This document shows positions 2 through 34,243 of a DNA stretch of 46,073 bases, in pieces. The notes below the pieces were generated by a model. It made no database searches. It was not told the DNA's origin and was given only the letters and a program-made list of their open reading frames with translations. This stretch comes from a virus: the IMG/VR virus record IMGVR_UViG_3300034198_025161, positions 1 through 46,073 of that record; one strand, written 5' to 3'. Numbering within the stretch: the first letter of the stretch is position 1; each line of letters opens with the position of its first letter. The translations under genes were made by a program, and so were the position numbers.

Positions 2-3000
2 GTTACAGGAACCGCTGGAGCATTATCTTTAGGCTTTACTGGAGGTATGCTTGGAGATCAAATAGGACAAGATATAAATTCATATATCTGGAATAAATAT
101 ATTCCAGCATCTATGAAGAAGAGAGTTATGGACAAGATGAAGGCTAGTCCAGAATCATATTCAGGAGGACAGTGGATAGGCTTTGGTGCTGAGTTAATGG
201 GAGGTGCTGCTGCTGATGATATGATCAGAAAGGGTATGACATCAGCTTTTGGTAAAGCGACCTCAGTAAGCTCAAAAATGTTACAGAATGGCGCTATTAC
301 ATCTAATGCTATTAAACTTTCTCCCAATAGTATTCCTATCGCTAATGCTAATGAAATTACTAATAGAAGTTTAGCATTATTTAAAGACGGTACAGAACAA
401 ACTGTTCAAAAATCCAAGAGGGTGGTTGGTGAGGCTGTTGTTAATCCAACGCCAGAAATGATGGCAGAACGTGCAAGATTACTTGAACAGGCTAGAGTAG
501 GTGAAGCAGCTAATGCTGCTAGAAAAGCAGCTAAAGCAAAAGCAGCTAAAACCGGAACCAAAACTAAACCTCCAGAAACTCCAAATGAAGCTGCGGTTGC
601 TCAACAAGCGTCAGACACAAAGCCAACAGCAGCTCCTCCCAAACCAGTCGCACCAAAACCAGAAGCTACTCCAGCAGAACCAAGGGCGGATTCACCAATA
701 GTCCCAATAAAACCAAAATCTACTTTCAAATATGAAGCTAGAGATACACGAGCTGGTTCTAAAACTTTTGGAATGGATGTAAGAGATTCGATAGAAGCGG
801 TTAGTCAAGAGGAAGCGATAGCACTTCTTAAAAAGCAAGGTTTGGATGTTTTGGCTAGTCGCCGTAGTGTAGAGAAGGGTAAACCTAGCATATACAAGCC
901 CAAGTCTTCTGACACAACAAAACCCAAAAAACCTTCGGGTTCAACGAAACCAAAACCTGCTCCAGCAGCAGGAAAAACGCCTCCAAAATCCACTTTTATA
1001 TATGAAGCCCTAGACACACGAACTGGAAGAGAAGTAAGAGACACAATAGAGGCTACTAGTCAAGACGAAGCACTAGATCTTCTGAAAAAGCAGGGTCTTA
1101 ATGTTTTACCTGATCCGAAGAGGAAGGGGAAACTCCTAATAAAACAAAAGAAGGCCCCCAAGGGTCCGTCTTATAAAGATGTTGTTGGTAAATGGGCTTG
1201 GGAAAAATTAAAAATAAAGGGAGATACCACATCAGCAAAAGCGTGGGATGTATTGAGAAAATTAAGCTATACTAGTCTTGCTTTTCAAGCACTGCCTATT
1301 GTATCTGGTATCGGTTCTGCTGCATATAATGCTGTTTTTGGAGAAAGACCAATGCCACCAGATGCTGGAGCTTCTGGATCATCTGGTCCGGTTACTGGAG
1401 GACCATTACCAAAACCAACATGGTCGGCAGACCCAATTGAAGAGATGAAAATTAATGCGGAAGTAGCAAAGAGAGCTTATGAGACAACGCAAAGAGATAG
1501 AACTGAAGAATTTGCTACCAAAGACAATCAGTATATGTTTGGTCAGATGCAACTTGCACAAGCTATGGGACTTAAAGATCCTATGGGGGCGGTTAACTTT
1601 ACTGCTCGTGGAGCAAAAATACCAAAATATGAACTGGGTGATGGCTCTGATCGTGGGCAACTGTTAAGAGCACAAGAAAGAGAAGAAGCAAATAAGAGAC
1701 TTAAAGAGCTCGACGAGAAACTCAAAACAGTGTCAGATGCCAAGACAATATCCCCAGATATGCAAAAGGATATTGACGAAAGAAATGCTTTACGTAAAAA
1801 ATTAGAACGAGATTATATCGCACAAAATAATCTTGGAATACCGAATGTAGATGGAAATACTTTCCCAGCATTTAATGTTACCAGTCCAATAATACCAAAA
1901 CCACAAGATTTTGGCTTTAAAGGAAATAATGAAGACAAATTTGACGGAGAAGATATTTTTGATATGAACGGAAAGCCATTTCCAGCCATTGTTGCCAAAG
2001 CTATGAAAAGTGATGGTAAAATGGATTTTAATGCGTATACGAGAAATGCATCTATTCTTAGTACTCCACTATCTTCAATACCGTCAGATAAGAAAAAACA
2101 AACGAACGAACAGGCATTACAACAATACTTAAGAGAATTTGGTGTTGTTCAACAGGATATTGCTGGTACAGATACTGATGAGAATAGTTTAGTTATTAAT
2201 AAGTTTAATGAATTAAAATCTAGATATCTTAAAGATTTTGCTGGCGGATCCATACCAGACCTAGATAACAGTCCAATATCAAGAGGTCCAGAAGCCGCAC
2301 AACAGGTTACAACACAAAGTAAAATGCTACAAAAACATTTACGAGATAAGTTATCTGATAGTAAATTTAAGTCGCAAAACTTTAGTGGCTCTGGATCTGC
2401 TGGTATTACTGGAGTTACCAAAGAAGATAAAGTTGCTGCACAAAAGGTTATTAATGATTTACTAACCAAGTATGGATACCCTGGAGATTCTGAAGATAAC
2501 CGTAAAAAATTAGTCAGTAAATTAGAAGAAAAAACATCCAAAGCTAATAACATTATTGAATCTAGCAAAGCATGGGATTTCTTTAATAAGCAAAGAGATA
2601 AATATGATGCTGAGCTTGAGAAGTATTGGACTATGAGAGCCAGATGGGAAAACAGAGAAGATTTACAAAACAATCCACTCCAAATGATGACTGGAATGGG
2701 TACTCTTAGCGAAGAAGAAAGAAATCAAGCTACTGTACAAATGCAGAAAATTGACAAAGATATAGCAGAGAAAATTAAAAAAGAAGGCAGAGACTCAGAC
2801 TCTGTTAAACTATTAGAAAGACAAAAACAAGAAGTATTAGATAAACTATACAAAAATCGTGTTGGTGCTGGCGTTAAATTTGAATCTTCTCCATCTATGG
2901 AATACGTATTATTTAATACTCCATTAAAGGGTGGAGCCCATATTAATCCATTCAAAACTTTTAGTAATTTTGATATGGCATATGGCAGACCCGGATCGAT

Positions 3001-5542
3001 GAATGTTGTCGGAGAGTCTGGACCATACATTAGAGATACTAATGAATTAATCAGTACAATGCTAAAGAATTATGGTAGTGCTCTTGGTATTAAAGAAAAA
3101 ATACCAGAAAATAATGAACAATTTAAAGCTTGGATACAAAAAATAGATCCAACTATTGCACAGTCCCTACCATCTGTTAATAGTAGTTTATCGTGGAATT
3201 TGGATAAACTACAAAATATGTATGGTACAGCAAGTGCTAATCCTACCACCGATAGTTTTGCAGATAAGTTTGGTTTATGGAACTTGCAAACAACAGAAAA
3301 AGCATACGATGATAGTTTTGTAGAAAATTATAAGCAAGCATTCCTTAAACAGATTAAGGGGGTTACATCGTCACAAACTGATAATAGATCCAAAGAACAA
3401 TATGTTTTGCCAAAAACTATAAAGAATTATCAGAATGCTATTGCTGCTATGGGCTTGTATACTGGACAAATGGCAGATGGTAATCCTAACATATATAAAA
3501 AAGTAAATCCAGGATTTAAGAAACTAACTATAGATAATAAACCAGAAGGGAAAACAGAAGAAGAACAAATTACTAGTTTACGTAAAAAACTTGGACAAGG
3601 ATATACAACTTGGAAGAGAGCTAATTTAGATAAGGTTTTTGGTGGAATAGCACCAAAAGACATTAAACAATGGAAAAGAATTGACGACAACTATAAACTA
3701 CCCGGAACCCCAGAAGAAGTTAGAAATACAGTTTTAGCAGATGTTAATACTTTGGATAGAATTAAAAATCTTGACACATTTACCATTAATAATAGAGAAT
3801 CTATTACTCCAGGATTAATGAGAGAAATTGCAGCAGGAGCTAATCTATTAAACGGAGCAAATACAGAAATTGGTGACGCAGCAGCGCAGCCTTTCATGGG
3901 TCAGGACAATAAGCCATTATCTGGAGAAACTAAATTTTTAGAATTCTTAGTAGACACTCTTAATTTTAATAAGGATCGTAATGTAAGCGAAAGACAAGCA
4001 AGACTAGAAGCATTAAGTTCAAAAGATTTAAAAGCAACAACACCAGATACGTCTTATCACAAAGCAGCAAAAGGTATACAAGATAGATTAAAAACTCTTA
4101 AAAAGCCATATGAATTCTGGGATTCATTAAGAAGCTATGGCACAGAGCCTGTTGCCGACTTAGTAAATAAGCCAGATCCAAATGCTAATAAAACTATTGT
4201 GCAAACCATTGATAATAATGGAATGCCTAAAATTTACAGGGGAGCAAATCAGGTAGAAATTGCTGACAAACAAATACCAGCAGATACTGTTGATAGATTC
4301 TTTGCTGGATATTCTGGACTATTTACAGAGTATCAACAGCCATATGAAATGATTAAACAACAAGTAGCTAGACTCGGAGGCAAATATACTGGCGAAATTT
4401 CAAATTTCCCAACTATGCCATCACCATTCGGTAATCCAAATTTTATTTACTTGAAAAAACATCTAGATATGCAGTCTGTGGAAGCTAAGGATATTGAAGC
4501 AGCTGGTGCTGGTGGAGACAAGCCAGGAGTAGTTCCTCCCAAAGCCCCAGCAGCATCTCCATCTTTAGGTCAAGACGTTAAAGAGAAAATTCAATTAGCT
4601 CATCAAAGAGTACAACAAAAAGCTCAAGCAATTTTTAATGATGAGACACTTCAACGATCCGAAGCCGAGCAATACACTCCATTATTATCTGATCTGGGTA
4701 AATTATTATTTGAGAATATTCCAACATTTAAAGACAATAGTACCCAAGAGAATTCTTCATGGTTTGGATATCAAAAATATTATAATCGTATGCATAGGTT
4801 TGGAGACGTTGCAGTTAATATGAATGATGTAGCTGCTTATAGGCCAGAAATATTAGAAGAGAAAAAATTAAGAAGCCATCTAGACAATGTTATTAAACCC
4901 AAATACTTATCCTCTGGTGGTTCTGTTTTAGTAAATTATCAACCCAAGGGTACAGATACTATTCCAGCAATGTTAACTCGTGGAGAATATGTTGTAAATA
5001 AACAAGCGACAAATAAACACTTACCACTATTAAATGCTATTAATAATGGAAGTATTGGCAGCGCCCCCAGTATGGGCGGAGTTTCATATGCTCAATCTGG
5101 AGGAATTATTAATCCAATATATAGAAAGGTTGGCGGAGGAAGTAATGTTATGAACGTGGCACAATCTTTTGGTAAGGCTATGGGATTTGATATGACTAGT
5201 GCCAACACAGTATTTGACAGCTTTATCAAATCTTTTGGTGCTGAGACTGCTAATTTAGGAGCTCTTATAAATAATCTAGCAAGAGTTTTCCCTGCATTAG
5301 GTGGTCCCGTTAGCGCTTTTGGAAAACATGTTGATACTTTTATTAGAGGTTTAGATTCTATTAAATCTATTGAAATTAAAGGACCAAGTATTCCAGAAAT
5401 AGTAACCTTTAAAGGGGGTAAGATAGAAGTAGAATTAACATCTCCAGCAGATAGTAGCTATAAATTAAGTCCAGAAGACGAAAAACGACTAGTAGATAAG
5501 ATACAATTAAGAGTTACCGAATTGATTGGATTAGGTAGATAA
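2..5542 (+). CDS. Tail tape measure protein (5' end outside window)
   Basis: This very large protein probably sets tail length and lies inside the tail tube. The frame is open to the left edge, and the glycine-rich residues before the first ATG (47) read like protein, so the true start is upstream; residue numbers here count from that ATG (1831 residues seen). The C-terminal part (about 1620-1645) has the tape-measure signature GTDTIPAMLTRGEYVVNKQA followed by Gly/Ser-rich sequence. Residues 130-215 are Ala/Lys/Pro-rich. Two repeats at about 227-275 and 317-359 (pattern F-x-YEA-x-D ... EA-x-x-LLKKQGL-x-VL) resemble the N-terminal domain of GspF/PilC secretion proteins. A hydrophobic stretch lies near 405-430 and the middle is charged and helical. 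It is the first gene of a plus-strand tail operon. The signature and size make the call firm; the GspF resemblance is by eye. Confidence 0.88.
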   Translation, partial: VTGTAGALSLGFTGGMLGDQIGQDINSYIWNKYIPASMKKRVMDKMKASPESYSGGQWIGFGAELMGGAAADDMIRKGMTSAFGKATSVSSKMLQNGAITSNAIKLSPNSIPIANANEITNRSLALFKDGTEQTVQKSKRVVGEAVVNPTPEMMAERARLLEQARVGEAANAARKAAKAKAAKTGTKTKPPETPNEAAVAQQASDTKPTAAPPKPVAPKPEATPAEPRADSPIVPIKPKSTFKYEARDTRAGSKTFGMDVRDSIEAVSQEEAIALLKKQGLDVLASRRSVEKGKPSIYKPKSSDTTKPKKPSGSTKPKPAPAAGKTPPKSTFIYEALDTRTGREVRDTIEATSQDEALDLLKKQGLNVLPDPKRKGKLLIKQKKAPKGPSYKDVVGKWAWEKLKIKGDTTSAKAWDVLRKLSYTSLAFQALPIVSGIGSAAYNAVFGERPMPPDAGASGSSGPVTGGPLPKPTWSADPIEEMKINAEVAKRAYETTQRDRTEEFATKDNQYMFGQMQLAQAMGLKDPMGAVNFTARGAKIPKYELGDGSDRGQLLRAQEREEANKRLKELDEKLKTVSDAKTISPDMQKDIDERNALRKKLERDYIAQNNLGIPNVDGNTFPAFNVTSPIIPKPQDFGFKGNNEDKFDGEDIFDMNGKPFPAIVAKAMKSDGKMDFNAYTRNASILSTPLSSIPSDKKKQTNEQALQQYLREFGVVQQDIAGTDTDENSLVINKFNELKSRYLKDFAGGSIPDLDNSPISRGPEAAQQVTTQSKMLQKHLRDKLSDSKFKSQNFSGSGSAGITGVTKEDKVAAQKVINDLLTKYGYPGDSEDNRKKLVSKLEEKTSKANNIIESSKAWDFFNKQRDKYDAELEKYWTMRARWENREDLQNNPLQMMTGMGTLSEEERNQATVQMQKIDKDIAEKIKKEGRDSDSVKLLERQKQEVLDKLYKNRVGAGVKFESSPSMEYVLFNTPLKGGAHINPFKTFSNFDMAYGRPGSMNVVGESGPYIRDTNELISTMLKNYGSALGIKEKIPENNEQFKAWIQKIDPTIAQSLPSVNSSLSWNLDKLQNMYGTASANPTTDSFADKFGLWNLQTTEKAYDDSFVENYKQAFLKQIKGVTSSQTDNRSKEQYVLPKTIKNYQNAIAAMGLYTGQMADGNPNIYKKVNPGFKKLTIDNKPEGKTEEEQITSLRKKLGQGYTTWKRANLDKVFGGIAPKDIKQWKRIDDNYKLPGTPEEVRNTVLADVNTLDRIKNLDTFTINNRESITPGLMREIAAGANLLNGANTEIGDAAAQPFMGQDNKPLSGETKFLEFLVDTLNFNKDRNVSERQARLEALSSKDLKATTPDTSYHKAAKGIQDRLKTLKKPYEFWDSLRSYGTEPVADLVNKPDPNANKTIVQTIDNNGMPKIYRGANQVEIADKQIPADTVDRFFAGYSGLFTEYQQPYEMIKQQVARLGGKYTGEISNFPTMPSPFGNPNFIYLKKHLDMQSVEAKDIEAAGAGGDKPGVVPPKAPAASPSLGQDVKEKIQLAHQRVQQKAQAIFNDETLQRSEAEQYTPLLSDLGKLLFENIPTFKDNSTQENSSWFGYQKYYNRMHRFGDVAVNMNDVAAYRPEILEEKKLRSHLDNVIKPKYLSSGGSVLVNYQPKGTDTIPAMLTRGEYVVNKQATNKHLPLLNAINNGSIGSAPSMGGVSYAQSGGIINPIYRKVGGGSNVMNVAQSFGKAMGFDMTSANTVFDSFIKSFGAETANLGALINNLARVFPALGGPVSAFGKHVDTFIRGLDSIKSIEIKGPSIPEIVTFKGGKIEVELTSPADSSYKLSPEDEKRLVDKIQLRVTELIGLGR

Positions 5543-13530: not shown

Positions 13531-14261
13531 ATGATACTCCAGTTATTTAGATACCCTTTAACATTATCCGGAATGCCATCTGTCTTTTGTTGATAAGATG
13601 ACAATTCTCTAATAACACTTAGAGCATCATGATGCAATATATTTTTAATATTACTATTATCTATATTGATAGTTTTAAGCAATTCTAATACGTTAATATC
13701 TAATCTTTTAGCTAATACATCAATAAAATTGATTTGATTATTAGTAATTTTTGTTACATTATCACCACTAATATCATCCTCAATATTTTCAGCAAGCTCC
13801 TCTGCTGCTACAACTTTTCTTAATCTCATAGCTCTTCTTAAAGCTCGTCCCTCAGCCCTTGTTTCTGCTACAGCTACCGGATGATTGCGATATGCTTTAT
13901 CACAATTACCCCAATATACATCAGCAGCCCCACTCACCGTTTTAATTTTACAAGCATCATCGGTTTCTGAATTTAAATCATACCATGTTAATGAATGTAC
14001 AACAGATGCCCGCTTTTCATTTGAAGGCTCGGGGGATTGTACGACAGTAGAGTCTGATTGGATTACAGTACAATTCATAACTCTTTCAAAAACTCTACGC
14101 AAACCATCAGTAGTAGGATTACCCTGGATTTTCTCATCATCGGACAACTGATGTAATACAAAATCAGTCCACTCGATATCTCCGATACTAACTTTTGTAA
14201 CTACTGGTGCCTCAGACACTGTATCATTTGTTGCAACGTCAACATTTTTTGTTTTAGCCAT
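13527..14261 (-). CDS. Possible single-strand annealing-type recombination protein
   Basis: This 244-residue protein has a low-complexity Thr/Val start, a central domain (about 30-160) containing the segment AVAETRAEGRALRRAMRL, and a helical C-terminus (about 175-244). The Arg/Ala-rich helix resembles helices of phage annealing proteins of the Erf/Rad52 type, and the downstream zinc-ribbon gene overlapping by 4 bases fits a DNA-binding pair. This is weak evidence; I see no motif unique to a known recombinase family. It overlaps the upstream nuclease gene by 8 bases. If not a recombinase, it is a conserved phage protein of unknown role. Confidence 0.4.
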   Translation of the reverse strand: MAKTKNVDVATNDTVSEAPVVTKVSIGDIEWTDFVLHQLSDDEKIQGNPTTDGLRRVFERVMNCTVIQSDSTVVQSPEPSNEKRASVVHSLTWYDLNSETDDACKIKTVSGAADVYWGNCDKAYRNHPVAVAETRAEGRALRRAMRLRKVVAAEELAENIEDDISGDNVTKITNNQINFIDVLAKRLDINVLELLKTINIDNSNIKNILHHDALSVIRELSSYQQKTDGIPDNVKGYLNNWSII

Positions 14262-15048
14262 CCAAATCTCCTATTTCTATTATATTAGTAGTAACTGTAT
14301 CTTGTATTTCTGTAATAGCACTTAAAAGTTTATCACAAAGTATATTAGCCCTAGCTTTAGAAAAATCTTTTGTTTGTTTGACTCTGATTAACTTATAGCC
14401 TTTACCGATCAATAGTCCCGCTTTCTTTTTATCATAAGCTATATTTTTATTCAGTACCTCTTCCCCCCACACAGGAACAAAATGCGATGGTCCATCAATC
14501 TCAATGGCTATATTCATGGTAGGCAAAAAAATATCAATTTGCAACTTTGTATTTGCTAGCAGTTGTTCCTTATGAAACTCTGTTTTGAAATTGTTTTTCA
14601 CCAGAAACTTTAGAATAAAGTGTTCTAGTTTTGACCCTAGTTTACTACTTTGTCTAACGGCCACGTTAGCTTTATGCAACATATTAGCTTTTTCATCATC
14701 GCTTTTTTTATCCCACAAATCTTTGTATACTGATTTTTTTTGTTCTCTTTGTTGATCATCTAACGATGCCCAGTTTTTCATAACAGATACGCCAATACTG
14801 TGTTTCTCAGCATCTGATCTTTGCCTGCCCTTGGTTGGATGTTTATGTTTTCCTGTTTTAAGAGCATTTTTTTGTGCCTCTGATTTATTTTTAATTTTTA
14901 TACCAAACTTTTTTGCATCCCTTAAGATCTTATTAGTATACGTATCATACTTTATAGCAATGTCTTTAAAGCTTAAATTTTCTTGGCAATATAATTTATT
15001 TATTATGTCTTTTTTAGCTTCATCTGTTAACTGGTCATATTTATTCAT
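14254..15048 (-). CDS. HTH plus Vsr/EDxHD-like nuclease, possible homing endonuclease
   Basis: This 264-residue protein has a helix-turn-helix-like start (about 1-50), a basic segment like NUMOD-type DNA-binding motifs (about 55-90: GKHKHPTKGRQRSDAEKHS), and a nuclease domain (about 135-240). The nuclease part shows Glu142 in an opening helix, Asp172 in IDIFLP, the strand EIDGPSH (183-189), a Lys-rich helix and GYKLIRVKQ, in the order seen in Vsr and the EDxHD homing enzymes (I-Bth0305I type). It probably cuts DNA. It sits inside the operon with 8-base overlaps on both sides, unlike a typical free-standing intruder, so a repair or recombination nuclease is also possible. Confidence 0.6.
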   Translation of the reverse strand: MNKYDQLTDEAKKDIINKLYCQENLSFKDIAIKYDTYTNKILRDAKKFGIKIKNKSEAQKNALKTGKHKHPTKGRQRSDAEKHSIGVSVMKNWASLDDQQREQKKSVYKDLWDKKSDDEKANMLHKANVAVRQSSKLGSKLEHFILKFLVKNNFKTEFHKEQLLANTKLQIDIFLPTMNIAIEIDGPSHFVPVWGEEVLNKNIAYDKKKAGLLIGKGYKLIRVKQTKDFSKARANILCDKLLSAITEIQDTVTTNIIEIGDLDG

Positions 15049-19707: not shown

Positions 19708-20121
19708 TCAAAACGCTACAACTTCCTCATTCTCCTGCGTATCCACATCAGCGTCTGCATTGGCGGTAGAAGTTTTAGTTTGTCCTCCCTTTACCACCTT
19801 CTGTATACGAGCAAAATTATTAACTCGTACCTTCATCGTTGACCGTTTGACGCCATCCTTTTCCCAGGTATCATTCCTTAGAGATCCTTCGATCATTACC
19901 AAATCGCCCTTTCTAAAAGAAGAAGATATTGCTTCAGCACCAGTGTCCCATGCCTCACAATTCACAAAAGTTGTGACCTTATCATTTTCGCCGTTGTTTT
20001 TGGTAAATTCTCTGGAAACAGCCACAGTAAAATTAACTACGGCAGTCTCTTTGCCAGATGGATTAACGTACCTGATCTCCGGATCTCTGGCTAAATTACC
20101 TCTCAAAATTACTAAATTCAT
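19708..20121 (-). CDS. ssb: Single-stranded DNA-binding protein
   Basis: This 137-residue protein coats single-stranded DNA during replication and recombination. The OB-fold is clear: MNLVILRGNLARDPEIRYV at the start, VNFTVAVSREF, then FVNCEAWDTGAEAI and KGDLVMIEGSLRNDTWEKDG. A polar linker leads to an acidic tail ending in Phe (ENEEVVAF), like the protein-binding tip of bacterial SSB. The frame opens six codons earlier at a TTG, but the ribosome binding site AGGAG lies inside those codons, 5 bases before the ATG at 20121, and the family begins at this Met. It has its own strong promoter and a terminator behind it, so it can be made alone at a high level. Confidence 0.95.
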   Translation of the reverse strand: MNLVILRGNLARDPEIRYVNPSGKETAVVNFTVAVSREFTKNNGENDKVTTFVNCEAWDTGAEAISSSFRKGDLVMIEGSLRNDTWEKDGVKRSTMKVRVNNFARIQKVVKGGQTKTSTANADADVDTQENEEVVAF

Positions 20122-20192: not shown

Positions 20193-21800
20193 TCAGACTT
20201 GCCAACATTTTTTAATAATGAAAGTCTCCTTATCTTTGGACCTGTCTAATTTAATTAGTAATGTATTTCCGTCCATTAATAGGTCTTTATACTGGGAGTA
20301 CTCTTCTGGGAAAACCACTAAATCAGAAGACCCTGTTGAGTCTGTGACTTTTATAAAAGCCATTTCTTGACCAGGATTTACTCCTCTTTTAGTACGAATA
20401 ACATTAATCTCACTTATTTCTGCACCAAGAATTGGTACTTTTGTATTGGTTCCTTGTGCTAAATCTTTACATTCTACATTGGCCGAATATATATCACAGC
20501 CATCAATCTTGTGGCATGTAATAGATGCTCCTAAATAAAACTTTTCATTATTTGCCAACCACTCAGGACTATCCTCAAGATTATATGGAGGATGATTGAT
20601 TGTATTAATTAAAGATCCAATAGTTTGTTTTCTTTTAACTGTAATTTTGATTATATTAGAGTTTACTAATATTTGTAAAGCGCGATCTATCGGATGATTT
20701 TCACAAACCTTAGCTAAAACATCGACCTCTCTATTTGTTAGATTGTTCAATATTTCATAATAAAATAGCATCTTAGTTCTAGAAATAGTAGCATTAGTAA
20801 TAGCACCAGCCGATATTAATCCCTTACAAGCTGTTGAATTTATATGTCTTAATATATAACAGTATATGTGGGTAAAGTTCATCGTCCCAATAGAGTACTG
20901 CTGTAATAATTGATTTAACTTATCATAAACAGAGTCTCCAAGACCCTTTATATTAGTTAATCCAAACCAAATACTATCATCTTCTGTATTAATAAAGAAT
21001 TCTTTTGATGGATTAAGAATAGACGGTAGTCTAACAGTAACACCCATCTCATTTGCATTACTAATTAATTCTTGTATCTCTTTTAGTGGATCTATTTTAT
21101 CCTTAGCAAATTTTAAATAAGAGGCAAAAAACTCTACTGGAAAGTGAGCTTTTGTGTATGCAGATAAGTATGCGTTGTATGCATAGCTTACAGCGTGACT
21201 CTTATTAAAGGAGTATCTTTGACTCTTTTCAATCCATCCGAATAGCTCCTCGGATTCTGCTTTGGAGATAATGTTACTAGCCTCAGATTTATGTAGAAAT
21301 AATTTTTTAATCTTCACCATTTCTTCTGGCTTTTTCTTACCGATAGCTTTTCTTAACTGATCAGCTTCTGTAAGGTCGAAATTAGCTATTTTTTGACAAA
21401 TTTGCATAGCCTGTTCTTGATATACCATTTCTCCGTATGTGGTACTCAGTATAGGCTCTAGTGCTGGATGAAAGAAGTCTACGGCTTCATTCTTATTTTT
21501 TTTATCAATATAGTGATTACTTACAGATTTACCATCACGATATGCTTCTAGACATCCTGGTCTCATAATACTAATAAGCGCAGATAATTGTTCTATATTT
21601 TCTGGCTTTAGTTTTTTAGCCATGCTTTGTCCTAGTCTAGACTCTAACTGAAAACATCCCTTGGTATTACCATCGGATATCATTCTCCATGTTTTAGGAC
21701 AATGAAGATCCATATTTTCTATGTCAATATCTAAGTCAATAGTATCTTCATTATTTAAATGAAATTTACACTTACAATCATCAAATGTAACTGTCTTCAT
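20193..21800 (-). CDS. dnaE: DNA polymerase III alpha, C-terminal part (split DnaE)
   Basis: This 535-residue protein is the second half of a bacterial-type replicative polymerase. It begins just before the fingers region (PKTWRMISDGNTKGCFQLES, about 36-55), continues with ISIMRPGCLEAYRDG, YGEMVYQEQAMQI, LRKAIGKKKPEEM and SHAVSYAYNAYLSAYTKAHF, and ends with a helix-hairpin-helix-like region and an OB-fold (VPILGAEISEIN ... DLVVFPEEY). The catalytic aspartates are in the other gene. Together the halves have 1165 residues, close to E. coli DnaE. It has a normal ATG at 21800 that overlaps the exonuclease stop by 4 bases. No intein sequence is seen at its start, so the halves probably pair without a covalent link. 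Confidence 0.92.
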   Translation of the reverse strand: MKTVTFDDCKCKFHLNNEDTIDLDIDIENMDLHCPKTWRMISDGNTKGCFQLESRLGQSMAKKLKPENIEQLSALISIMRPGCLEAYRDGKSVSNHYIDKKNKNEAVDFFHPALEPILSTTYGEMVYQEQAMQICQKIANFDLTEADQLRKAIGKKKPEEMVKIKKLFLHKSEASNIISKAESEELFGWIEKSQRYSFNKSHAVSYAYNAYLSAYTKAHFPVEFFASYLKFAKDKIDPLKEIQELISNANEMGVTVRLPSILNPSKEFFINTEDDSIWFGLTNIKGLGDSVYDKLNQLLQQYSIGTMNFTHIYCYILRHINSTACKGLISAGAITNATISRTKMLFYYEILNNLTNREVDVLAKVCENHPIDRALQILVNSNIIKITVKRKQTIGSLINTINHPPYNLEDSPEWLANNEKFYLGASITCHKIDGCDIYSANVECKDLAQGTNTKVPILGAEISEINVIRTKRGVNPGQEMAFIKVTDSTGSSDLVVFPEEYSQYKDLLMDGNTLLIKLDRSKDKETFIIKKCWQV

Positions 21801-22495
21801 ACTTTAAACGAGTCCTTGAATTTAATCTTTTGGCTTAATTTTTTATGTAGCTTTAAAAATCTAATTAAAATTTGAGCACAATCCTCAACATCCTTTAAGG
21901 CATTGTGAGCATTTGTTTTATCTATACCCAGATAGTCTCTCATACTATCCAGAGATAGTCCCTTAACTTCTGACACATAGCTCATCCACATACCGAATAC
22001 ATGCATAATATCAATCTTATCTCGTGGATGAAATAAACATGTCTCTTTCTCTTTATTTGTATTACTATATTTATTACTCAGCCTATTCACGATGGGCATA
22101 TCAAATCGTAATATATTATATCCAGCAGCTATTGGTGCTGTGAATTGAGACTTTTTGCCACCATTAGACTTTAGGTGATACTTATCTAAATATGTTACAA
22201 ATTGTGCCCAAGCATATTTCTGCTCTGGATAAGTTTTCCATTCTTCTAATACTTGATCAGAGGATATGTTTCTAATTTTGCCATGCCACTCCAGAATGTC
22301 AGAATCAGTATAAGGATTACTTATTGTTGTATCTATTAATTTATCTGGCTTTAGAAACGTATTAAATTCAGATTTTGGTATAATCTCTAATTTAATCGGA
22401 TCAATAATTAGAGCAGAAAGCTGGACCGGACTACACTCTTCTGGATTTTTTCCATCGGTCTCAAAATCAAAAACGCATATTTTATTATTTATCAT
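21797..22495 (-). CDS. DnaQ-like 3'-5' exonuclease (proofreading)
   Basis: This 232-residue protein is a DEDDh-type exonuclease. Motif I is VFDFETDG (Asp10 and Glu12), motif II is AAGYNILRFDMPIVNRL, and motif III is AHNALKDVEDCAQIL, giving the expected acidic residues and His. It probably proofreads for the polymerase, like the epsilon subunit. It lies between the two polymerase gene halves, overlapping the downstream half by 4 bases and the upstream small gene by 11, so equal expression with the polymerase is likely. No clamp-binding motif was identified by eye. Confidence 0.88.
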   Translation of the reverse strand: MINNKICVFDFETDGKNPEECSPVQLSALIIDPIKLEIIPKSEFNTFLKPDKLIDTTISNPYTDSDILEWHGKIRNISSDQVLEEWKTYPEQKYAWAQFVTYLDKYHLKSNGGKKSQFTAPIAAGYNILRFDMPIVNRLSNKYSNTNKEKETCLFHPRDKIDIMHVFGMWMSYVSEVKGLSLDSMRDYLGIDKTNAHNALKDVEDCAQILIRFLKLHKKLSQKIKFKDSFKV

Positions 22496-22667
22496 CTATA
22501 ATGATCTCCACTTGGGATTTGTATTCGAACAGTGTTTCTTTATTATCTTTTAATCTTATGGCATTAGCTTGAATCTTACAACAAGTCTGTTTAATTTCTG
22601 GTATTTTTAAATACTCGTATTCATTATGTCTGAATCTTTGACCAGCTAAAATTTCTTCAAATAGCAC
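22485..22667 (-). CDS. Small protein at the polymerase split, 60 residues, GTG start
   Basis: This 60-residue protein lies between the polymerase N-terminal gene and the exonuclease, overlapping each by 11 bases. It starts with GTG preceded by AAAAAGGTG at good spacing, and the overlaps match the style of the other genes, so it is probably real. The sequence (EILAGQRFRHNEYEYLKIPEI ... NAIRLKDNKETLFEYKSQVEI) reads as a small all-beta domain, like short phage proteins with an SH3-type barrel. No family is recognised. It might help assemble the split polymerase, but that is a guess from position. Confidence 0.6.
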   Translation of the reverse strand: MLFEEILAGQRFRHNEYEYLKIPEIKQTCCKIQANAIRLKDNKETLFEYKSQVEIIIDDK

Positions 22668-24549
22668 ATTTCACCTTTTTGGTTTTTAGTATATCCCTAA
22701 CACACATAATTTTATCTAACAATGCTATACCAAGAATATCAAACTTGATAACCCCAATAGATTCTAAATCAGCCATTTCAAATCCGGCTATGCTTTGCTC
22801 TGTTTTTGAGTCCCAGATCATTGGACAAATTGTGTTTAGTGACTTGTTGGATATGGCTATACCTGCTGCGTGTTTAGATTGATTGTACTTTGACCCCTCC
22901 AATCTAATAGCCTGTTCAAAACGCTTGGCAAGAGGCCCGTATAAGGCTCCGTCGTCACCTATATAACACCATTCCTTAAGCTTTGCTCCGTTATTCTCTA
23001 GAGCCCACTTTATGATAGAAGCTTCTCCATCTTCTTCTTTCATTTCTTGTAGTTCATCTGCTATTTTAGCTTCATCAGGAATATGTTTTGTGATTCTATT
23101 CATTTCTTCAAATGATATATTACCATATATTCTCAATACTTCCTTGAGAGCACCTCTACCCTTCAGAGTATTAAAAGTAATCATTTGAGACACCTTATCA
23201 TAACCATACTTATTTTTAATATAGTTGATAATTTCTTCTCGATGTTCAATAGGTACGTCAACGTCTATATCTGGCATGGAGATGTTCGTGCTTGTATTCC
23301 TACCTGTATTATAGAATCTTTCAAAGATTAAATCATACCTAATCGGATCTATTCCTGTAATCCCAATAAGATAAGAGACTAAACATCCAGCAGCAGATCC
23401 TCTTCCTGGCCCAGGTAAACAATTCTTATTTTTTACATAACTAACGATATCTCGTATGATTAAAAAATAACTTGCTAGATTAGTGGCCTCAAGAATATCT
23501 AGTTCTTTTTTTACCCTATCTACATAAACGGCCTGTTCTTCTTTTGGAATTTTATTTTGTATTTTACTTAACCAGCCCTGTCTACATAAATGTCTTAGGT
23601 AATCGATAGGCTTTTGCTGGTCTGGACAATGAAAGTTTGGTAATTGTGGAGAAGAAAGTATTTCATACTCCTCACACATACTATTTATTAGAATGGTATT
23701 ATCTAACTCTTCTTTATCGTGTATTTCCTGCATTTCATCTGGAGATAGTATATAATACTTATCAGATATAAAAAAGCTAGATAGTGGAACCTTTTCGTTA
23801 TTAATGATTTTATTAGATATTTCTGGCAAGGTGACTTTCAAAGAACTACACAGTAATACTCTTTGATCAACAGCATCAGATGCTTCGCAATAGTGAGCGT
23901 CAATTGTTGCAACTCTTGGAAGATTATGTGACACCGATAATTTTCTTAATGTTGTTCCTATAGTTTGCTGATGAGTATTTTGTGAATCCATTAGCTGTAT
24001 TTCTATAAATACATTATTTTTGCCAAAAATATCATATAGTTTTTGAATATGTTCCAAGCCTTTATTTTCCCAATTATCTAATAGGCTTGAATTATCAAAA
24101 CTATAGATAGTATCACACAAGGTGGATCCTGGGTGTCCGGTAATACAAATAAGGTTCTGATTACCATTAAGCGTTCTTTTTATAAGATCAAGATCTAGTC
24201 TAGGTTTATAATAGAAATGCTCAGCATTATTAGATAGAGAAACCAAATTGATTAGGTCTTGCCATCCCTTATAATTTTTGCACAACACAACCATATGAGA
24301 TAGATCATTATTTGTTTTATCTTTAATGGTAGCATCATTATTACAAATATATAATTCACAGCCCATAATTGGCTTAATACCATTTTTCTTCATAGTCTTA
24401 TAAAAATTAACATTACCAGATATTGTGCCATGATCAGTCACGGCACAGCTGGTCACACCAATAGCTTGACATCTCTTTGCTATTTGTTCTGGTTTAGATA
24501 GGCCGTCTAATAAACTATAGTGTGTGTGAACATGCAAAGGAATATACAT
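22657..24549 (-). CDS. dnaE: DNA polymerase III alpha, N-terminal part (PHP and palm)
   Basis: This 630-residue protein holds the PHP domain and the catalytic palm of a replicative polymerase. PHP metal ligands all appear present: His6 and His8 (HVHTH), Asp39-His40 (TDHG), Glu65, His85, His139 (ITGHPGS), Asp217 and His219 (IDAHY). The palm shows PGPGRGSAAGCLVSYL, then PDIDVD with Asp429 and Asp431, and Asp604 in IKFDILG, equivalent to the three catalytic aspartates of E. coli DnaE (401, 403, 555). The protein stops 26 residues after Asp604, before the fingers, which the downstream gene encodes. Its ATG shares one base with the stop of the RecB-like nuclease gene. Confidence 0.94.
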   Translation of the reverse strand: MYIPLHVHTHYSLLDGLSKPEQIAKRCQAIGVTSCAVTDHGTISGNVNFYKTMKKNGIKPIMGCELYICNNDATIKDKTNNDLSHMVVLCKNYKGWQDLINLVSLSNNAEHFYYKPRLDLDLIKRTLNGNQNLICITGHPGSTLCDTIYSFDNSSLLDNWENKGLEHIQKLYDIFGKNNVFIEIQLMDSQNTHQQTIGTTLRKLSVSHNLPRVATIDAHYCEASDAVDQRVLLCSSLKVTLPEISNKIINNEKVPLSSFFISDKYYILSPDEMQEIHDKEELDNTILINSMCEEYEILSSPQLPNFHCPDQQKPIDYLRHLCRQGWLSKIQNKIPKEEQAVYVDRVKKELDILEATNLASYFLIIRDIVSYVKNKNCLPGPGRGSAAGCLVSYLIGITGIDPIRYDLIFERFYNTGRNTSTNISMPDIDVDVPIEHREEIINYIKNKYGYDKVSQMITFNTLKGRGALKEVLRIYGNISFEEMNRITKHIPDEAKIADELQEMKEEDGEASIIKWALENNGAKLKEWCYIGDDGALYGPLAKRFEQAIRLEGSKYNQSKHAAGIAISNKSLNTICPMIWDSKTEQSIAGFEMADLESIGVIKFDILGIALLDKIMCVRDILKTKKVKCAI

Positions 24550-25568
24550 TATACTTCTCCGGGTGCTTTGTAGGTACCTACACTATATCCTGGGAGCTGA
24601 TAGATGTCAACAGCCTCATTCATACCATGTAATTCCAAATCGTGCTTAATTTGTTCACACTGTGTCATTGTTGCATTTTTTGGAGTTAACTGATTATCTC
24701 TATATTCCACAATTGGTGATACGTGCTTATCGTTAACGAATGTATTTTTACCAAAATGACATAACTTACTACACATCCAAGATTTTTTAAGTTTTGGCTT
24801 TTGTGTTTTCTGTATATGAATAAACTTTTCTCTAAGCATATACTCGGTCTTAGCAGCATTATCTTCATTATCAAAACATATTGAGAACGGACCACCATCA
24901 TTAATGAAGTTGATTGTCACAATAATATGTTTAAATTCTGGAAATAAACGATGAATAGCATAATGATAAAGCTTTAACTGTGGATCATCCTCCAGCTTTG
25001 CTTGTGTTTTTTCTTCGCCGGTTGCCCAGTTTAGTCTTCTTCCAGTTTTCCAGTCAATTATCTCTAGTGTAGAATCATCTATTTTGGTAACTAAGTCTAT
25101 GGTTCCTTTGATAGCTAAATTACCACTCACCTTTTTTCCGTCTATATCATATACATACTTAGCCCACTCTTTATCTATTACAAGATCAAAGTGTTGCTCA
25201 GCCCTAAAGATATTGCGCTCTCTTGGGTCAAACATGCGATTATGAGATCTAAGAGTTTTGCTCACCCATTCTATACAATCTTTACGGTCTTTTTCTGACC
25301 ATGAGTGATGCTGACACTGAGATGTATAATACTCATAAATAATATTTACTAACGATAAAATGAATTTATCATCATGCATATCTTGTTTTTTAAAGTCTAT
25401 TAGTCCTACAATATCGTCATTGATACTTTCTAGTTTATCTTGATGTGCTTTTTTCATCAAGGCTAGTATTTCTAGTACCTTATGAACTATAGTCCCTTTG
25501 TCTGCTTTTTTATTTGATAGTCCTCGTCTACCAAGAACATATTCAATAAAATATTGTTGCTCGCACAT
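24549..25568 (-). CDS. RecB/Cas4-like PD-(D/E)XK nuclease; true start probably upstream
   Basis: This is a PD-(D/E)XK nuclease of the RecB C-terminal/Cas4 type. Visible motifs are GTIVHKVLE (His29), GTIDLVTKI (Asp158), LEIIDWKTGRR (Asp172 and Lys174) and DPQLKLYHYAI (Gln197). Cys2 plus a C-terminal pair (MCSKLC) could belong to an Fe-S cluster, but the full four-Cys set is not clear. The only ATG (25568) has no ribosome binding site and cuts the conserved start: the codons before it read YFRSSSYNTHS, matching the family's usual opening. Upstream the frame offers only ATT and ATA codons, behind AAAGGA, up to a stop at 25623-25625. It probably processes DNA ends in recombination or replication. 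Confidence 0.82.
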   Translation of the reverse strand: MCEQQYFIEYVLGRRGLSNKKADKGTIVHKVLEILALMKKAHQDKLESINDDIVGLIDFKKQDMHDDKFILSLVNIIYEYYTSQCQHHSWSEKDRKDCIEWVSKTLRSHNRMFDPRERNIFRAEQHFDLVIDKEWAKYVYDIDGKKVSGNLAIKGTIDLVTKIDDSTLEIIDWKTGRRLNWATGEEKTQAKLEDDPQLKLYHYAIHRLFPEFKHIIVTINFINDGGPFSICFDNEDNAAKTEYMLREKFIHIQKTQKPKLKKSWMCSKLCHFGKNTFVNDKHVSPIVEYRDNQLTPKNATMTQCEQIKHDLELHGMNEAVDIYQLPGYSVGTYKAPGEV

Positions 25569-25606: not shown

Positions 25607-26200
25607 TTATAATTGTAATATTCCTTTATGCTTAAGAAAATCTAATAAAATAGCATTTTGTTGCTGTATAGTCATATGTTTATTATCAATAACCATATCG
25701 AATCTACTATGATCATAATTATTTTCGTCCAGCGCTATTTCGCTACTATGATCAGAATTATATGGATTTCTAGTAAGCTTAATAACTAGTCCACCAGCGC
25801 TCTTAATGGCCTCGACCTCATTTGGAAATCTGCAATCGGCTATTATGCCTAGTCTAGGATTATCTTTTTTAATTCTCCTAATGGTAGCTTCTGACCAAAC
25901 ATTTGTTTGTAGTTTTCTAAACATATCCGTTCCCACCATTTGCATAACTTCCCTTGCGGATAGTTGTTTGTTCTCCCAGTAACAGTCTACTAGTTCATTT
26001 TTTTGATCATCACTACCATAACATTGATCATATGTTAATCCAAGTATATTTATACAGATGTCTTGTTTTAATGGGTCCGCAAAGTTATACACATCATATT
26101 TTTTCATAGTATGCGCTGCAAATATTTCTCCTGCAAATTGAGCGCATGTTGTCTTACCCGACTGCTTTCTTCCCGCAAAAGCTAAAATAAAATTAGACAT
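25607..26200 (-). CDS. Deoxynucleoside monophosphate kinase
   Basis: This 197-residue kinase probably phosphorylates dNMPs to dNDPs. It has a P-loop GRKQSGKTT (Gly10 to Thr17), then YNFADPLKQDI, the SAREVMQMVGTDMFRK segment typical of phage dNMP kinases of the T4 gp1 type, and IIADCRFPNEVEAI with VIKLTRNPY. The length fits the family. It complements the ribonucleotide reductase and dCMP deaminase of this window. It overlaps the primase gene by 8 bases, and its last codons hold the AAAGGA that may serve the downstream nuclease gene. Confidence 0.88.
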   Translation of the reverse strand: MSNFILAFAGRKQSGKTTCAQFAGEIFAAHTMKKYDVYNFADPLKQDICINILGLTYDQCYGSDDQKNELVDCYWENKQLSAREVMQMVGTDMFRKLQTNVWSEATIRRIKKDNPRLGIIADCRFPNEVEAIKSAGGLVIKLTRNPYNSDHSSEIALDENNYDHSRFDMVIDNKHMTIQQQNAILLDFLKHKGILQL

Positions 26201-27350
26201 GTATCTTTTCCATTTCTGGTATAATAGTTCGTTTAACAGTATCTACATCCATATCGGCTATATCGTTAGTAACGATTGATAGTGTTTTAACATTATATGT
26301 TCTATAGCACTTATCGTATATTTGTTTTGTTCCAACCTGTCCAGCTTCGTCGCTGTCTAATAGTACCAATAGAGACATAGCCCCAGAACAATCTAGTAGC
26401 ATTTTTTGTCTATCGCTTAGAGATGTTCCAAATATGGCTACCGAGTTCTTGATTCCTGCTTCTTCTAATCTCCATACATTACCCGGACTTTCAACTATCA
26501 CAGCTATGCCGGTCTTAAGTATATATTCTTTAGAGAACCATAGGTTGTAAAGGTGATCTTTAGACTTAAAGTCTTTATTATGTTTCCATTTAGAGTACTT
26601 CCATCCATACTCATGGCCTACGCAATCTGTTTTAGGATTATGATAATAAGAGCATTTTTGGCATTTTTCATGAATGCTTCTTCCACTACAACCTACCATA
26701 CGACTATGTTGTTGGTCATATACTGGTACTACGATTCTATCAAACATTTCTTTATTTGGATTATCACACAAGCCAATATCGTATTTATCTAGAATATTTG
26801 TAGAGTATCCTCTTTGTAAATAATAATTTGCTGGTATATCTAATGCTTTTCTCACCATTGTTCTACTGGGTAATTTATCAAGATTATTAATAACAGGGGA
26901 TATACTTTGTATATTCTTAATAAATGTTTTTTTCTCTAGATTAACATTATTAGTTTTAATATCCCTAAGATCTTTTTGTAAAATTTTTAATGCCATTGTC
27001 ATAGTATCATCAAAACTATACGTTTCATCTCCATCTTTGTTCCAGTTACTATTTTTAACAGACAGTACGCCTCTTAGAAACCCTATAATTGATGGTTGGA
27101 AAATTCTTTCGCAGTGGTGTGTTCTACACACCCAATTACCTCGATAGGAGTCTCCAACGTAATATAAGTTAAGTGCCGATTCATTATCTCCACCATGAAT
27201 TGGACATGCCATTGTTATCATTTTATTTGTGTGTTTACAATTTAGTTGAAATGTTTCACATAACAAGTCTATATTGTCACACAATTCGTCGCATACAGCC
27301 TTAATCTTGGCCTGACTAAACGAACGGGATTTCTTCTTCGTTTTGCTCAT
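26193..27350 (-). CDS. dnaG: DNA primase, DnaG/Toprim type
   Basis: This 385-residue primase makes RNA primers for the DnaB-type helicase encoded just upstream. It has an N-terminal CHC2-like zinc site (Cys49, His52, Cys75, Cys80 in CPIHGG ... CRTHHC), an RNA-polymerase domain (YLQRGYSTNILDKYDIGL, FDRIVVPVYD) and a Toprim domain with IVESPGNVWRLEEAG and LVLLDSDEAGQVG. A second metal-binding loop (CQKCSYYHNPKTDCVGHE) interrupts the catalytic core, which is not usual in DnaG. It lacks the long helicase-binding C-terminal domain of DnaG and is shorter than the roughly 580 residues of E. coli. Its start lies inside the helicase gene (35-base overlap). Confidence 0.9.
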   Translation of the reverse strand: MSKTKKKSRSFSQAKIKAVCDELCDNIDLLCETFQLNCKHTNKMITMACPIHGGDNESALNLYYVGDSYRGNWVCRTHHCERIFQPSIIGFLRGVLSVKNSNWNKDGDETYSFDDTMTMALKILQKDLRDIKTNNVNLEKKTFIKNIQSISPVINNLDKLPSRTMVRKALDIPANYYLQRGYSTNILDKYDIGLCDNPNKEMFDRIVVPVYDQQHSRMVGCSGRSIHEKCQKCSYYHNPKTDCVGHEYGWKYSKWKHNKDFKSKDHLYNLWFSKEYILKTGIAVIVESPGNVWRLEEAGIKNSVAIFGTSLSDRQKMLLDCSGAMSLLVLLDSDEAGQVGTKQIYDKCYRTYNVKTLSIVTNDIADMDVDTVKRTIIPEMEKIHV

Positions 27351-28797
27351 CTGTTATATCTGTAGTAATTTGGAATGTGTTTCTATTTTTTGGAGAATTA
27401 TTTGTTAGTTCTAGTTTGGTTTGCCCCTCTGTAATTTGTGCACACCAACCCTTCATGTGACAGTTTATATAGTCGTTATCATCGAGTCCGCCACCATGTC
27501 TACTAACAAGAGGTATCAGCTTCCTATTTCCTGCCGCAGGTCCATCTTCGGCAATTTCTTCATCAGACTTGCGTTTAAAAATAGAAAAGTTACTACACAA
27601 CCAGATGATTCTGTCTGATCCGCTTGCTGTGTCTGTACTTTCTTTAGTTATACCATCACGATTTAACTGAACAAAGGCCACTATCGGTATTTTATACTTG
27701 GTCGCAAAATTATGTAATGATGTCATCATAAAGCCTAATACTTGATATTCTTTTAGATCTTGAGACATACCTATAGAATCCATTAGCTTTAAATAATCGT
27801 AAAATATTACACAATCTTTTGCTGTTCCGTCATCATTTAAGCCAACCTCTTTGATAATCCATCTTCTCATAATAGCCAATTGTTCATCAAATGGCTTACC
27901 AGCTATTGACTTGTAATAAAGCTTCATATTTTTTAATCTGGACTTAGCATCATATACTTTGCTTTTTAAGTCCGCAGAGTCTTTGAATTTACCTGTTTCT
28001 ATGGTTCTCAAATCCACCTCTGTCATCATACCAATAATACGATTAATATGATCTTCAGTTGTCATTTCCGTGTCCATATTTAATACAGGAATATTGCTAT
28101 TGGCTAAATAATATCCCATATTATCTGCTAATAATGTTTTGCCAGTTTTGGGTCTGGCCGCAATAACATTTACTGTGCTTTTCCTTAACCCTCCACCTAT
28201 TGCTTGGTCATATATAGGGAATCCAGTAGACAAACCTACTTGATCAACAGGATTATCTTCTAGATTTTGAATATACTCATCTATATTCTTTCCGATAGCT
28301 TCTGGCTCAGATTTACCGTCTCCTAGCAATAGACCCAAATCGAAAACCTTACTCTCTGCTATATTTAGTATTTCCGCAATAGACTCTGATCCTGTTATGT
28401 CACTCAGCTCTTTTTGTGCTATTCCAAGTTGTTCACTAATATTCCTAGCTACTTCAAGCTTCTTGATTTTAGTGGCAAATTTTCTGATATTACTTTGATC
28501 AACAGGGAAATCTAATATAGCCTTGATATGCATGGCTTCATCTTTTGACGATAAAGCATCTTTGCAACCCAGATCTTGAGCTACAGAGTATATATATGCC
28601 AAATCAATAACTGCATTATTGTCATTATTATATATGTGCTGTATGCAACTATATATTAGAGCGTTACTGTCTATGGTGAAAGATTTGCTGGATAAAAGAT
28701 CAGAAATATCTAAATAAGAATTTTCACCATATTTACATAAACCAGATAAAACCGCACGCTCAGCCGAAGGGTCTGCCAAATATTCTGTAGTTTTCAT
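27316..28797 (-). CDS. dnaB: Replicative DNA helicase, DnaB type
   Basis: This 493-residue hexameric 5'-3' helicase unwinds the fork. It has the N-terminal helical domain (AERAVLSGLCKYGENSYLDI ...), a linker, and the RecA-like motor: STGFPIYDQAIGGGLRKSTVNV precedes Walker A ARPKTGKTLL (Lys220), IPVLNMDTEMT follows, Walker B is VIFYDYLKLMD, and VAFVQLNRD is the sensor-type motif. Length is typical of DnaB. The ATG has AAGGA upstream and lies 21 bases after the zinc-ribbon gene. The primase gene starts 35 bases before its end, so the pair is translated together. Confidence 0.93.
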   Translation of the reverse strand: MKTTEYLADPSAERAVLSGLCKYGENSYLDISDLLSSKSFTIDSNALIYSCIQHIYNNDNNAVIDLAYIYSVAQDLGCKDALSSKDEAMHIKAILDFPVDQSNIRKFATKIKKLEVARNISEQLGIAQKELSDITGSESIAEILNIAESKVFDLGLLLGDGKSEPEAIGKNIDEYIQNLEDNPVDQVGLSTGFPIYDQAIGGGLRKSTVNVIAARPKTGKTLLADNMGYYLANSNIPVLNMDTEMTTEDHINRIIGMMTEVDLRTIETGKFKDSADLKSKVYDAKSRLKNMKLYYKSIAGKPFDEQLAIMRRWIIKEVGLNDDGTAKDCVIFYDYLKLMDSIGMSQDLKEYQVLGFMMTSLHNFATKYKIPIVAFVQLNRDGITKESTDTASGSDRIIWLCSNFSIFKRKSDEEIAEDGPAAGNRKLIPLVSRHGGGLDDNDYINCHMKGWCAQITEGQTKLELTNNSPKNRNTFQITTDITDEQNEEEIPFV

Positions 28798-32549: not shown

Positions 32550-32963
32550 TTACTTCAAGCTCCTATTAGCCTTTTGTAATAGTCTTAAGTTTTTAGTTCT
32601 TAAAAAATCTACATATGTATCAAAAACTGACTTATCTACTTCTTTAAAAAACCACTCAGTTTTACAAACCTTATCTACAAATTTAGATTTCTCTTTAATA
32701 GTTGAGTGTATCTGTACGGGGTTATATAGTTCGTTCTTTGGATTTAACATAACATAATAAGCATAATATACTTTATTATCAGCAATATGTTTAGGTTTTT
32801 TATTAAGAATTGCTTTTGCATAGACAATATCTGACTGTTCATTCCTGCATGGATTATTGTCCTTGTCTAAGAAATCCTGTTGATCCATAAGAGTATAATA
32901 TCTATTAGTTACAAGCTCATCTTCTTTGTGTTGTATGTCAAAATCTTTGATATTGATTTTCAT
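32550..32963 (-). CDS. Hypothetical protein, paralogue of the 113-residue protein at 31872
   Basis: This 137-residue protein is not recognised. It has a helical/beta N-terminal part with DKDNNPCRNEQSDIVYAKAIL and a C-terminal half that matches the 31872-32213 protein (NP at the start of a shared segment, SVFDTYVDFLRTKNLRLLQ near the end). This version keeps a longer N-terminus. Its start lies inside the end of the HNH gene (26-base overlap). The pairing suggests duplication around the FmdB-like gene. Confidence 0.6.
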   Translation of the reverse strand: MKINIKDFDIQHKEDELVTNRYYTLMDQQDFLDKDNNPCRNEQSDIVYAKAILNKKPKHIADNKVYYAYYVMLNPKNELYNPVQIHSTIKEKSKFVDKVCKTEWFFKEVDKSVFDTYVDFLRTKNLRLLQKANRSLK

Positions 32964-33534
32964 TCGTCTCTTCCGTTTTAATGAAATTTTCCCACTCTGA
33001 AGTATATTCTATATTAGACAGGGCGTGGAACCATGGCAAGTATTTATGATTATAAGTGGGTACTTTGGGTTTATTTAATAGAGCCATACCAGCTTCTTCT
33101 GGTGTTTTATTAGCTTTCTTACGATTACACTTACAACACGCAGTAACTATATTTTGCCAACAGGTTGGGGATGTGTTATTTCTCCATTTAGATTTTGGTA
33201 TAACATGATCATATGTTAATTTAAGATGATGATATTGTTTACCACAATATTGACAAGTATGGTTATCTCTTAAAAATAGATTTTTTCTAGAGAATTTTAC
33301 ATATTTTCTATACGTTTGAATATATGTATTAGACTTAATAACAGATGGAAGTCTGTATTGATTATTTAACCCAATAATATATTCATCATGATATGCTAAA
33401 ATATCAACATTAGGGTATGTTTGTTCTTGTATTTTAATATACCAACAAATAGATTTTTTCCAATCTATTATAGCCACAGGAGTATAGTCTACATTCAGCA
33501 GTAAACATGCTTTATGAATTTTGCTCATGACCAT
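32938..33534 (-). CDS. HNH endonuclease-family protein
   Basis: This protein of about 198 residues begins with the segment typical of a widespread HNH family (KACLLLNVDYTPVAIIDWKKS), then VIKSNTYIQTY ... VKFSRKNLFLRDNHTCQYCGK, the active site LTYDHVIPKSKWRNN and CCKCNRKKANKTPEEAGMALL. The two CxxC pairs bind zinc, and DHV-x10-N is the HNH core. This is the common host and phage family, not an obvious homing enzyme. The start is uncertain: ATG at 33534 or 33528, or TTG at 33537, none with a clear ribbon of purines upstream. All overlap the phoH stop by about 20 bases. Confidence 0.85.
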   Translation of the reverse strand: MVMSKIHKACLLLNVDYTPVAIIDWKKSICWYIKIQEQTYPNVDILAYHDEYIIGLNNQYRLPSVIKSNTYIQTYRKYVKFSRKNLFLRDNHTCQYCGKQYHHLKLTYDHVIPKSKWRNNTSPTCWQNIVTACCKCNRKKANKTPEEAGMALLNKPKVPTYNHKYLPWFHALSNIEYTSEWENFIKTEETNENQYQRF

Positions 33535-34243
33535 CAAGTTTGGATATAATATGTGCTATAATAGGATTTCTAACAATATCAACATATTCTAATCTACTAA
33601 CCCCAATGCCGTTTACTTCGCTAAGAAGTTGTGCCATAGTAGCAAAACCACCACGATATGATCTTTGTAAATCAGATTGTGCGACATCTCCCGTTAATAC
33701 CATTTTACTATCCATCCCTATTCTGGTTAATAACATTTTTAACTGGTCGTAGGAGGCATTTTGACACTCATCAGCAACAATAAAACACTTGTGGAAACTT
33801 CTTCCTCTCATAAGTCCTAGCGGAACTATTTCTATTCTATTTAGAAGTTTAAGTTTATTATATAATGGTGATGTTATAAAATAATTAATTTCATCTAAAA
33901 TAGGTAATAAATATGGATGTAATTTTTCTTCTGCTGTTCCTGGTAAATAGCCAAGCTTTTCTCCAGCTTCTAATACTGGTCTTGTGATTATAATTCTTTC
34001 AATTTTTTGATTCAACAAAGCTTCTAAGGCCATACCTATTGCAATGTGCGTTTTACCACTACCGGCAACACCATGACAAAACGTAATAGTATTTTCTGCA
34101 ACCGTTCTTATATATTCTGCTTGGTTATGTGTTTTCGGCTTTAGTCTATTCTTAAAACTAAAAATAACATGATCTTCTGGCACTAAATTATTGGTTAGAT
34201 CTAGAGCTTTTTTCTGGTTTTTCTTTGTTGTTTTTTTTCTCAA
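33512..34243 (-). CDS. phoH: PhoH-like ATPase, TTG start
   Basis: This 243-residue protein is a PhoH-type P-loop ATPase. Walker A is CHGVAGSGKTHIA (Lys64), followed by RIIITRPVLEAGEKLGYLPG, EEKLHPYLLPILD, and Walker B FIVADECQNAS with LTGDVAQSDL, all family hallmarks. PhoH genes are frequent in marine and other large phages; the role is thought to be RNA- or stress-related but is not settled. The first 25 residues are basic. The start is TTG, preceded by GAAAGG at 7 bases, with no suitable ATG nearby, 22 bases after the reductase gene. Confidence 0.9.
   Translation of the reverse strand: MRKKTTKKNQKKALDLTNNLVPEDHVIFSFKNRLKPKTHNQAEYIRTVAENTITFCHGVAGSGKTHIAIGMALEALLNQKIERIIITRPVLEAGEKLGYLPGTAEEKLHPYLLPILDEINYFITSPLYNKLKLLNRIEIVPLGLMRGRSFHKCFIVADECQNASYDQLKMLLTRIGMDSKMVLTGDVAQSDLQRSYRGGFATMAQLLSEVNGIGVSRLEYVDIVRNPIIAHIISKLDGHEQNS

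Follow-up and report, generated by a model that had tools for sequence, protein, structure and literature searches.

A probable two-subunit DnaE replicase, with an exonuclease gene at the split, in an uncultured phage lineage

Introduction

Can a bacterial-type replicase work when its gene is cut in two, and why should an exonuclease gene lie at the cut? The question is raised by a stretch of viral DNA of 46,073 nt (IMG/VR record IMGVR_UViG_3300034198_025161), here called the window, whose - strand carries a dnaE locus divided into an N-terminal and a C-terminal gene (N-half and C-half; Table 1). An earlier note on this DNA had read the locus as a stable two-part polymerase with its proofreader, and not as a gene in decay. 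We have followed this reading through the sequence of the window and that of its relatives.

Table 1. Genes of the split dnaE locus and its replication neighbours in the window.
Feature	Coordinates	Strand	Description
DnaE N-subunit (N-half)	22657..24549	-	630 aa; PHP, palm, thumb; catalytic Asp 427, 429, 604
Small 60-aa gene	22485..22667	-	GTG start; slot after N-subunit; own family, dispensable
DnaQ-like DEDDh exonuclease	21797..22495	-	232 aa; D10, E12, D132, H197, D202; between polymerase genes
DnaE C-subunit (C-half)	20193..21800	-	535 aa; short C-x-C head, fingers, HhH, OB fold; no tau-binding domain
Single-strand binding protein (SSB)	19708..20121	-	directly downstream of C-half; conserved neighbour
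PD-(D/E)XK exonuclease	24549..25568	-	directly upstream of N-half; conserved neighbour
TOPRIM primase	26193..27350	-	same replication cluster as split dnaE
DnaB-like helicase	27316..28797	-	same replication cluster as split dnaE

Results

The two genes together hold a contiguous polymerase core

Every number in the earlier note was reproduced from the sequence: the gene lengths, the overlaps of 11, 11 and 4 bases (N-half/60-aa gene, 60-aa gene/exonuclease and exonuclease/C-half respectively), and the 1165 aa to which both DnaE halves sum. Likewise, the N-half stops 26 residues after its third catalytic Asp, as the note had it; this is residue 604, the equivalent of E. coli D555. The GCFQLES motif occupies residues 48-54 of the C-half. 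Searches with Pfam, PHROG and NCBIfam profiles placed PHP and palm in the first gene, RNase_T in the exonuclease, and fingers, HhH and OB in the last; the domains of a DnaE-type family C polymerase (PHP, palm/thumb, fingers, HhH and OB) are thus present in order, across two genes (Pfam, NCBIfam).

TIGR00594 (length 1022) was matched back to back, at 1-576 by the N-half and at 577-1022 by the C-half. The halves being contiguous on this profile, the cut falls at the palm/fingers boundary and leaves the core sequence intact. To that extent the earlier statement that nothing is missing was right, but it does not extend to the end of the protein: the full DnaE profile NF004226 ends at 1146 and the C-half match stops at 1052, which means that the tau-binding C-terminal domain expected of a replicative DnaE1 is absent. 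The total is that of a normal DnaE despite this loss because the N-half is ~50 residues longer than its E. coli counterpart. The C-half opens with a head (residues 1-33, window 21702-21800) that bears a conserved C-x-C-x-F beta hairpin and a Cys before TW; loci L017, L018, L024-L027 and L072 lack the hairpin part. Downstream, the SSB start was taken as the first ATG (20121), behind TAGGAGC; the ORF list holds an alternative upstream TTG (20139).

The split and its gene order are shared by a single clade

The earlier note had named two findings that would undo its reading, an assembly error at this point and relatives with one uninterrupted gene. As to the first, an independent contig of 111.7 kb matched the whole window at 99.94-100%, and the split is therefore not a misassembly. 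As to the second, at least 270 motif-bearing loci, at least 180 of them distinct, were collected by pooling an IMG/VR scan (368 relatives) with a motif scan, and a gene open through the junction was seen in 0 of 270 loci (180 distinct) among the matches listed; the motifs came from the split family itself and the count covers the motif matches listed, so that a close relative with an undivided gene may have escaped notice. Patterns designed for an undivided junction, run as a separate scan, hit distant intact polymerases only, and the closest intact DnaEs found were ~35% (N) and ~30% (C) identical. Among isolate phages the best matches were ~35% identical, and neither the exonuclease nor the small protein had a match there; bacterial genomes held relatives of 27-35% only.

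Gene order was equally constant. A first IMG/VR scan had given 183 relatives. In all 80 that were retained, the order is N-half, DEDDh exonuclease, C-half, and the upstream exonuclease and SSB adjoin the split locus in nearly all of them. In the larger collection, the exonuclease lay between the halves in 166 of the 166 distinct loci showing all three genes, among the matches listed, and the same split and gene order that the earlier note had suggested looking for in related phages were thereby found. All 166 encode the polymerase by two genes in place of the single chain of DnaE, of which this enzyme is a variant.

That the split is an assembly error, a frameshift or a self-splicing intron within an otherwise intact gene therefore has a negligible likelihood. 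Some contigs do contain sporadic frame errors (e.g. L008 and L038), but complete genes sit between the halves, the independent 111.7-kb contig shows the same arrangement, at least 180 distinct loci share the position of the cut, and no intron family was found: an Rfam scan for self-splicing introns gave a sole match, which was unrelated and scored well under its gathering cut-off.

The split polymerases were monophyletic in a tree of 181 sequences (124 tips, support 0.94); the intact sequences in it were picked by motif, which makes the sister group tentative. Identity to the C-half of the window falls to ~38% across the family. The N-half and C-half distance matrices correlate (r=0.89), a comparison from which the upstream exonuclease was left out since some pairs had no shared columns. 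Split polymerases also occur in a sister clade (L322, L304, L379, L335 and L314), where the N-half is shorter (~530 aa), the PHP domain is reduced and the slot is occupied by different small genes.

Both halves and the exonuclease appear to be maintained by selection

The three catalytic aspartates and the conserved basic residues of the palm, matching E. coli D401, D403, D555, K553, R362 and R390, were invariant in 119 of 119 sequences, and the DEDDh residues of the exonuclease were kept in at least 95% of 154 sequences. Between the window and three close relatives, the two polymerase genes and the exonuclease gene have pN/pS values of 0.07-0.18, which indicates strong purifying selection on all three among close relatives. 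The C-half, modelled alone, reached a mean pLDDT of 91.7 and matched DnaE structures over its full length.

These data bear on the possibility that one half is used alone, or that the genes are decaying in a phage that relies on the host polymerase. The loss of the tau-binding domain would suit such a history, and the activity of the two-part enzyme is a prediction from its sequence. Yet the catalytic residues of both enzymes are invariant or nearly so, pN/pS is low, and neither half has been dropped from any of the 166 loci among the matches listed; we regard single-half use or decay as very unlikely, in agreement with the earlier note.

No intein is found at the cut

The halves might also be joined after translation by a split intein. 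Cyanobacteria join their split DnaE in this manner, and some members of the phage family carry a split intein elsewhere in the N-half. At the palm/fingers cut, however, the N-half continues across 118 loci for just 19-31 residues beyond the third Asp, which leaves no room for half an intein, and the C-half heads are short or nearly absent, none with an intein-C ending. The intein-N and intein-C pair of an intein-joined split DnaE is thus lacking at the cut, as the earlier note had seen for the window, and we consider joining by an intein extremely improbable. Collectively, a split intein, a self-splicing intron and an assembly error at the cut were ruled out by the tail and head lengths, the Rfam scan and the independent contig respectively.

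Inteins do interrupt the family at another point. In L230 (= L075, 2041-5130), L200, L253 and L381, intein-like halves that flank an endonuclease-like ORF break the N-half again, between GPGRG and SAAG; in L293 intein halves occupy the same site and the endonuclease-like gene is absent. This second break leaves the polymerase in three pieces. An HNH-type gene immediately follows the N-half stop in L030/L031, where Pfam gave no match. In L358, the C-half is split again within the fingers region, by ~0.9 kb. The window itself has HNH/homing endonuclease genes outside the split locus, at 14254-15048 and 32938-33537.

The region between the halves tolerates insertions

The 60-aa protein forms a family of its own, and its gene was not found in 30 of the 166 distinct loci among the matches listed; a needed role for it was not borne out. 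In eight of these 30 loci the N-half and exonuclease genes are at most 34 bases apart, and in others the slot is taken by a uracil-DNA glycosylase, a homing-type nuclease or unrelated small genes. Seven loci have extra genes between the exonuclease and the C-half (a ThyX/FkbM/DUF1559 cluster, a nuclease, a nucleotidyltransferase-like gene), and in L223 the halves are ~4.5 kb apart. Specifically, DUF1559 (pseudopilin-like) and ThyX genes lie there in L223 (2358-6004) and L250 (3374-6004), with an FkbM methyltransferase in L223 too; DUF1559 hints at a Planctomycetes-type host.

With the small gene absent from some loci and the halves separable, the 60-aa protein is not an essential bridge, and the two genes can do without strict translational coupling. 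The earlier proposal that the exonuclease was placed for equal expression stands insofar as it is at the split in every relative and short gene overlaps are common across the family, but not in its strict form, as other genes can separate the exonuclease from the C-half. The inter-half region tolerates insertions, with small genes, repair genes and homing endonucleases coming and going, and this fits two independent proteins.

The exonuclease is a candidate proofreader

The protein encoded between the halves combines a DEDDh active site with an RNase_T fold; ranked by E-value, the fold closest to its model (pLDDT 94.1) is that of a PolC-type proofreading exonuclease domain, and its tail carries the sequence K-x-K-F-K-x-x-F. 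The position of its gene between the halves makes it a candidate epsilon-type proofreading subunit. It could instead be a mere neighbour of the two-part polymerase, serving repair or recombination, with proofreading left to the PHP domain. PHP metal-binding positions are indeed largely kept (H8, D39, H40, E65, H85, D217 and H219), and the exonuclease fold is also near ExoI and RNase T. Against this, the exonuclease gene is the sole gene always between the halves and its closest fold is that of a proofreading domain, and we judge the neighbour explanation unlikely.

Another partition of dnaE was met in L138 (6291-10749), where a PHP gene (255 aa), a DEDDh exonuclease gene (215 aa) and a PHP-less core (857 aa) follow one another; L115, L149 and L153 share it. 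L138-type loci adjoin RNR, ClpC-like and DUF1501 genes, and may be bacterial sequence filed as viral. Taken with the palm/exonuclease/fingers arrangement of the window, this partition raises the somewhat doubtful possibility that a DEDDh exonuclease gene was placed at a dnaE break more than once and selected, e.g. for ordered replicase assembly.

The split enzyme is the only replicative polymerase found

Contigs of 112-205 kb held a single palm locus each (13 contigs; frame-broken in G003) and a single fingers locus each (11 contigs). No PolA or PolB domain was found in 12 contigs, linear and possibly incomplete, with one Pfam model each. Likewise, no DnaN-type clamp (one Pfam model), clamp loader or tail sheath was found in 12-13 contigs, again possibly incomplete, and hallmark-gene searches gave weak tail and head matches only. 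A 5268-aa protein seen in L103 (160-15966), from the same virus, is cut off at the left end of the window; the part that the window holds (1-5542) has a weak tape-measure match.

Discussion

Sequence, conservation, gene order, a single clade, purifying selection and the lack of a rival polymerase among those searched for all point to a conserved two-part polymerase. We think it very probable that the locus encodes an obligate two-subunit family C (DnaE) replicase of a large uncultured phage lineage with contigs of up to ~205 kb. The break in an ancestral dnaE would probably have occurred a single time, in the loop that leads from the last helix of the palm to the first of the fingers; an origin of this cut via a mobile element is plausible. 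The N-subunit would contribute PHP, palm, thumb and the catalytic aspartates, the C-subunit fingers, HhH and OB. We infer that the two chains fold separately and dock by the native palm/fingers interface, as in ordinary DnaE, with no covalent joining, and that the DEDDh exonuclease acts in trans to proofread for the assembled enzyme, its attachment to the polymerase being suggested by gene position only. The phage encodes its own primase, helicase and SSB beside the split polymerase; clamp and clamp loader would probably be supplied by the host, because neither was found.

If this is true, the fold of the bacterial replicase stays functional when the two sides of its active-site cleft are encoded as free subunits, and this state has persisted while the phages diverged deeply. 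Such a natural split family C polymerase would also be a test case for palm-fingers recognition, and the members fractured again by a split intein would form a natural series on how essential genes break and stay broken.

Several known systems invite comparison. PolC-type Pol III likewise links a polymerase closely with a DEDDh exonuclease. In PolC, however, the exonuclease is a domain within one chain, whereas in the phage each part is a protein by itself, and profile scores place the polymerase with DnaE and not with PolC. Cyanobacteria also encode DnaE by two genes, but DnaE-n and DnaE-c are joined by a split intein (the Npu/Ssp DnaE intein) at a site differing from the phage cut, which has none. 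The split PolB of Methanothermobacter functions without covalent joining. In jumbo phage MIJ3, the intein halves of a split PolB flank an HNH gene (PMC6892783). These two are also replicative polymerases in two genes, but of family B, not C.

A term search of a 2026 survey of bacterial polymerases found no split DnaE. A split phage Pol III alpha came up in a single report in our literature search, other matches being inteins or unrelated, and it is the closest system known: in group 2.2 jumbo phages, a minimal Pol III alpha is split into two stand-alone proteins believed to rebuild the enzyme together (Iyer et al., 2021; PMC7824862). There, the proteins comprise core subdomains only, their genes are far apart, and PolB is present alongside (PMC7824862). 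In Atu_ph07 we found two candidate pieces, a partial palm match (320-aa frame, 241 kb) and a sub-threshold fingers match (192-aa frame, 58 kb), ~182 kb apart. The window shares with group 2.2 a phage family C polymerase made as two stand-alone proteins. In contrast to that reduced core with distant genes, its enzyme is near full length, encoded in one operon with an exonuclease at the cut, and the sole polymerase found. While split phage Pol III itself was already known, what is new here is a two-subunit DnaE that is intein-free and near full length and has an exonuclease at the split.
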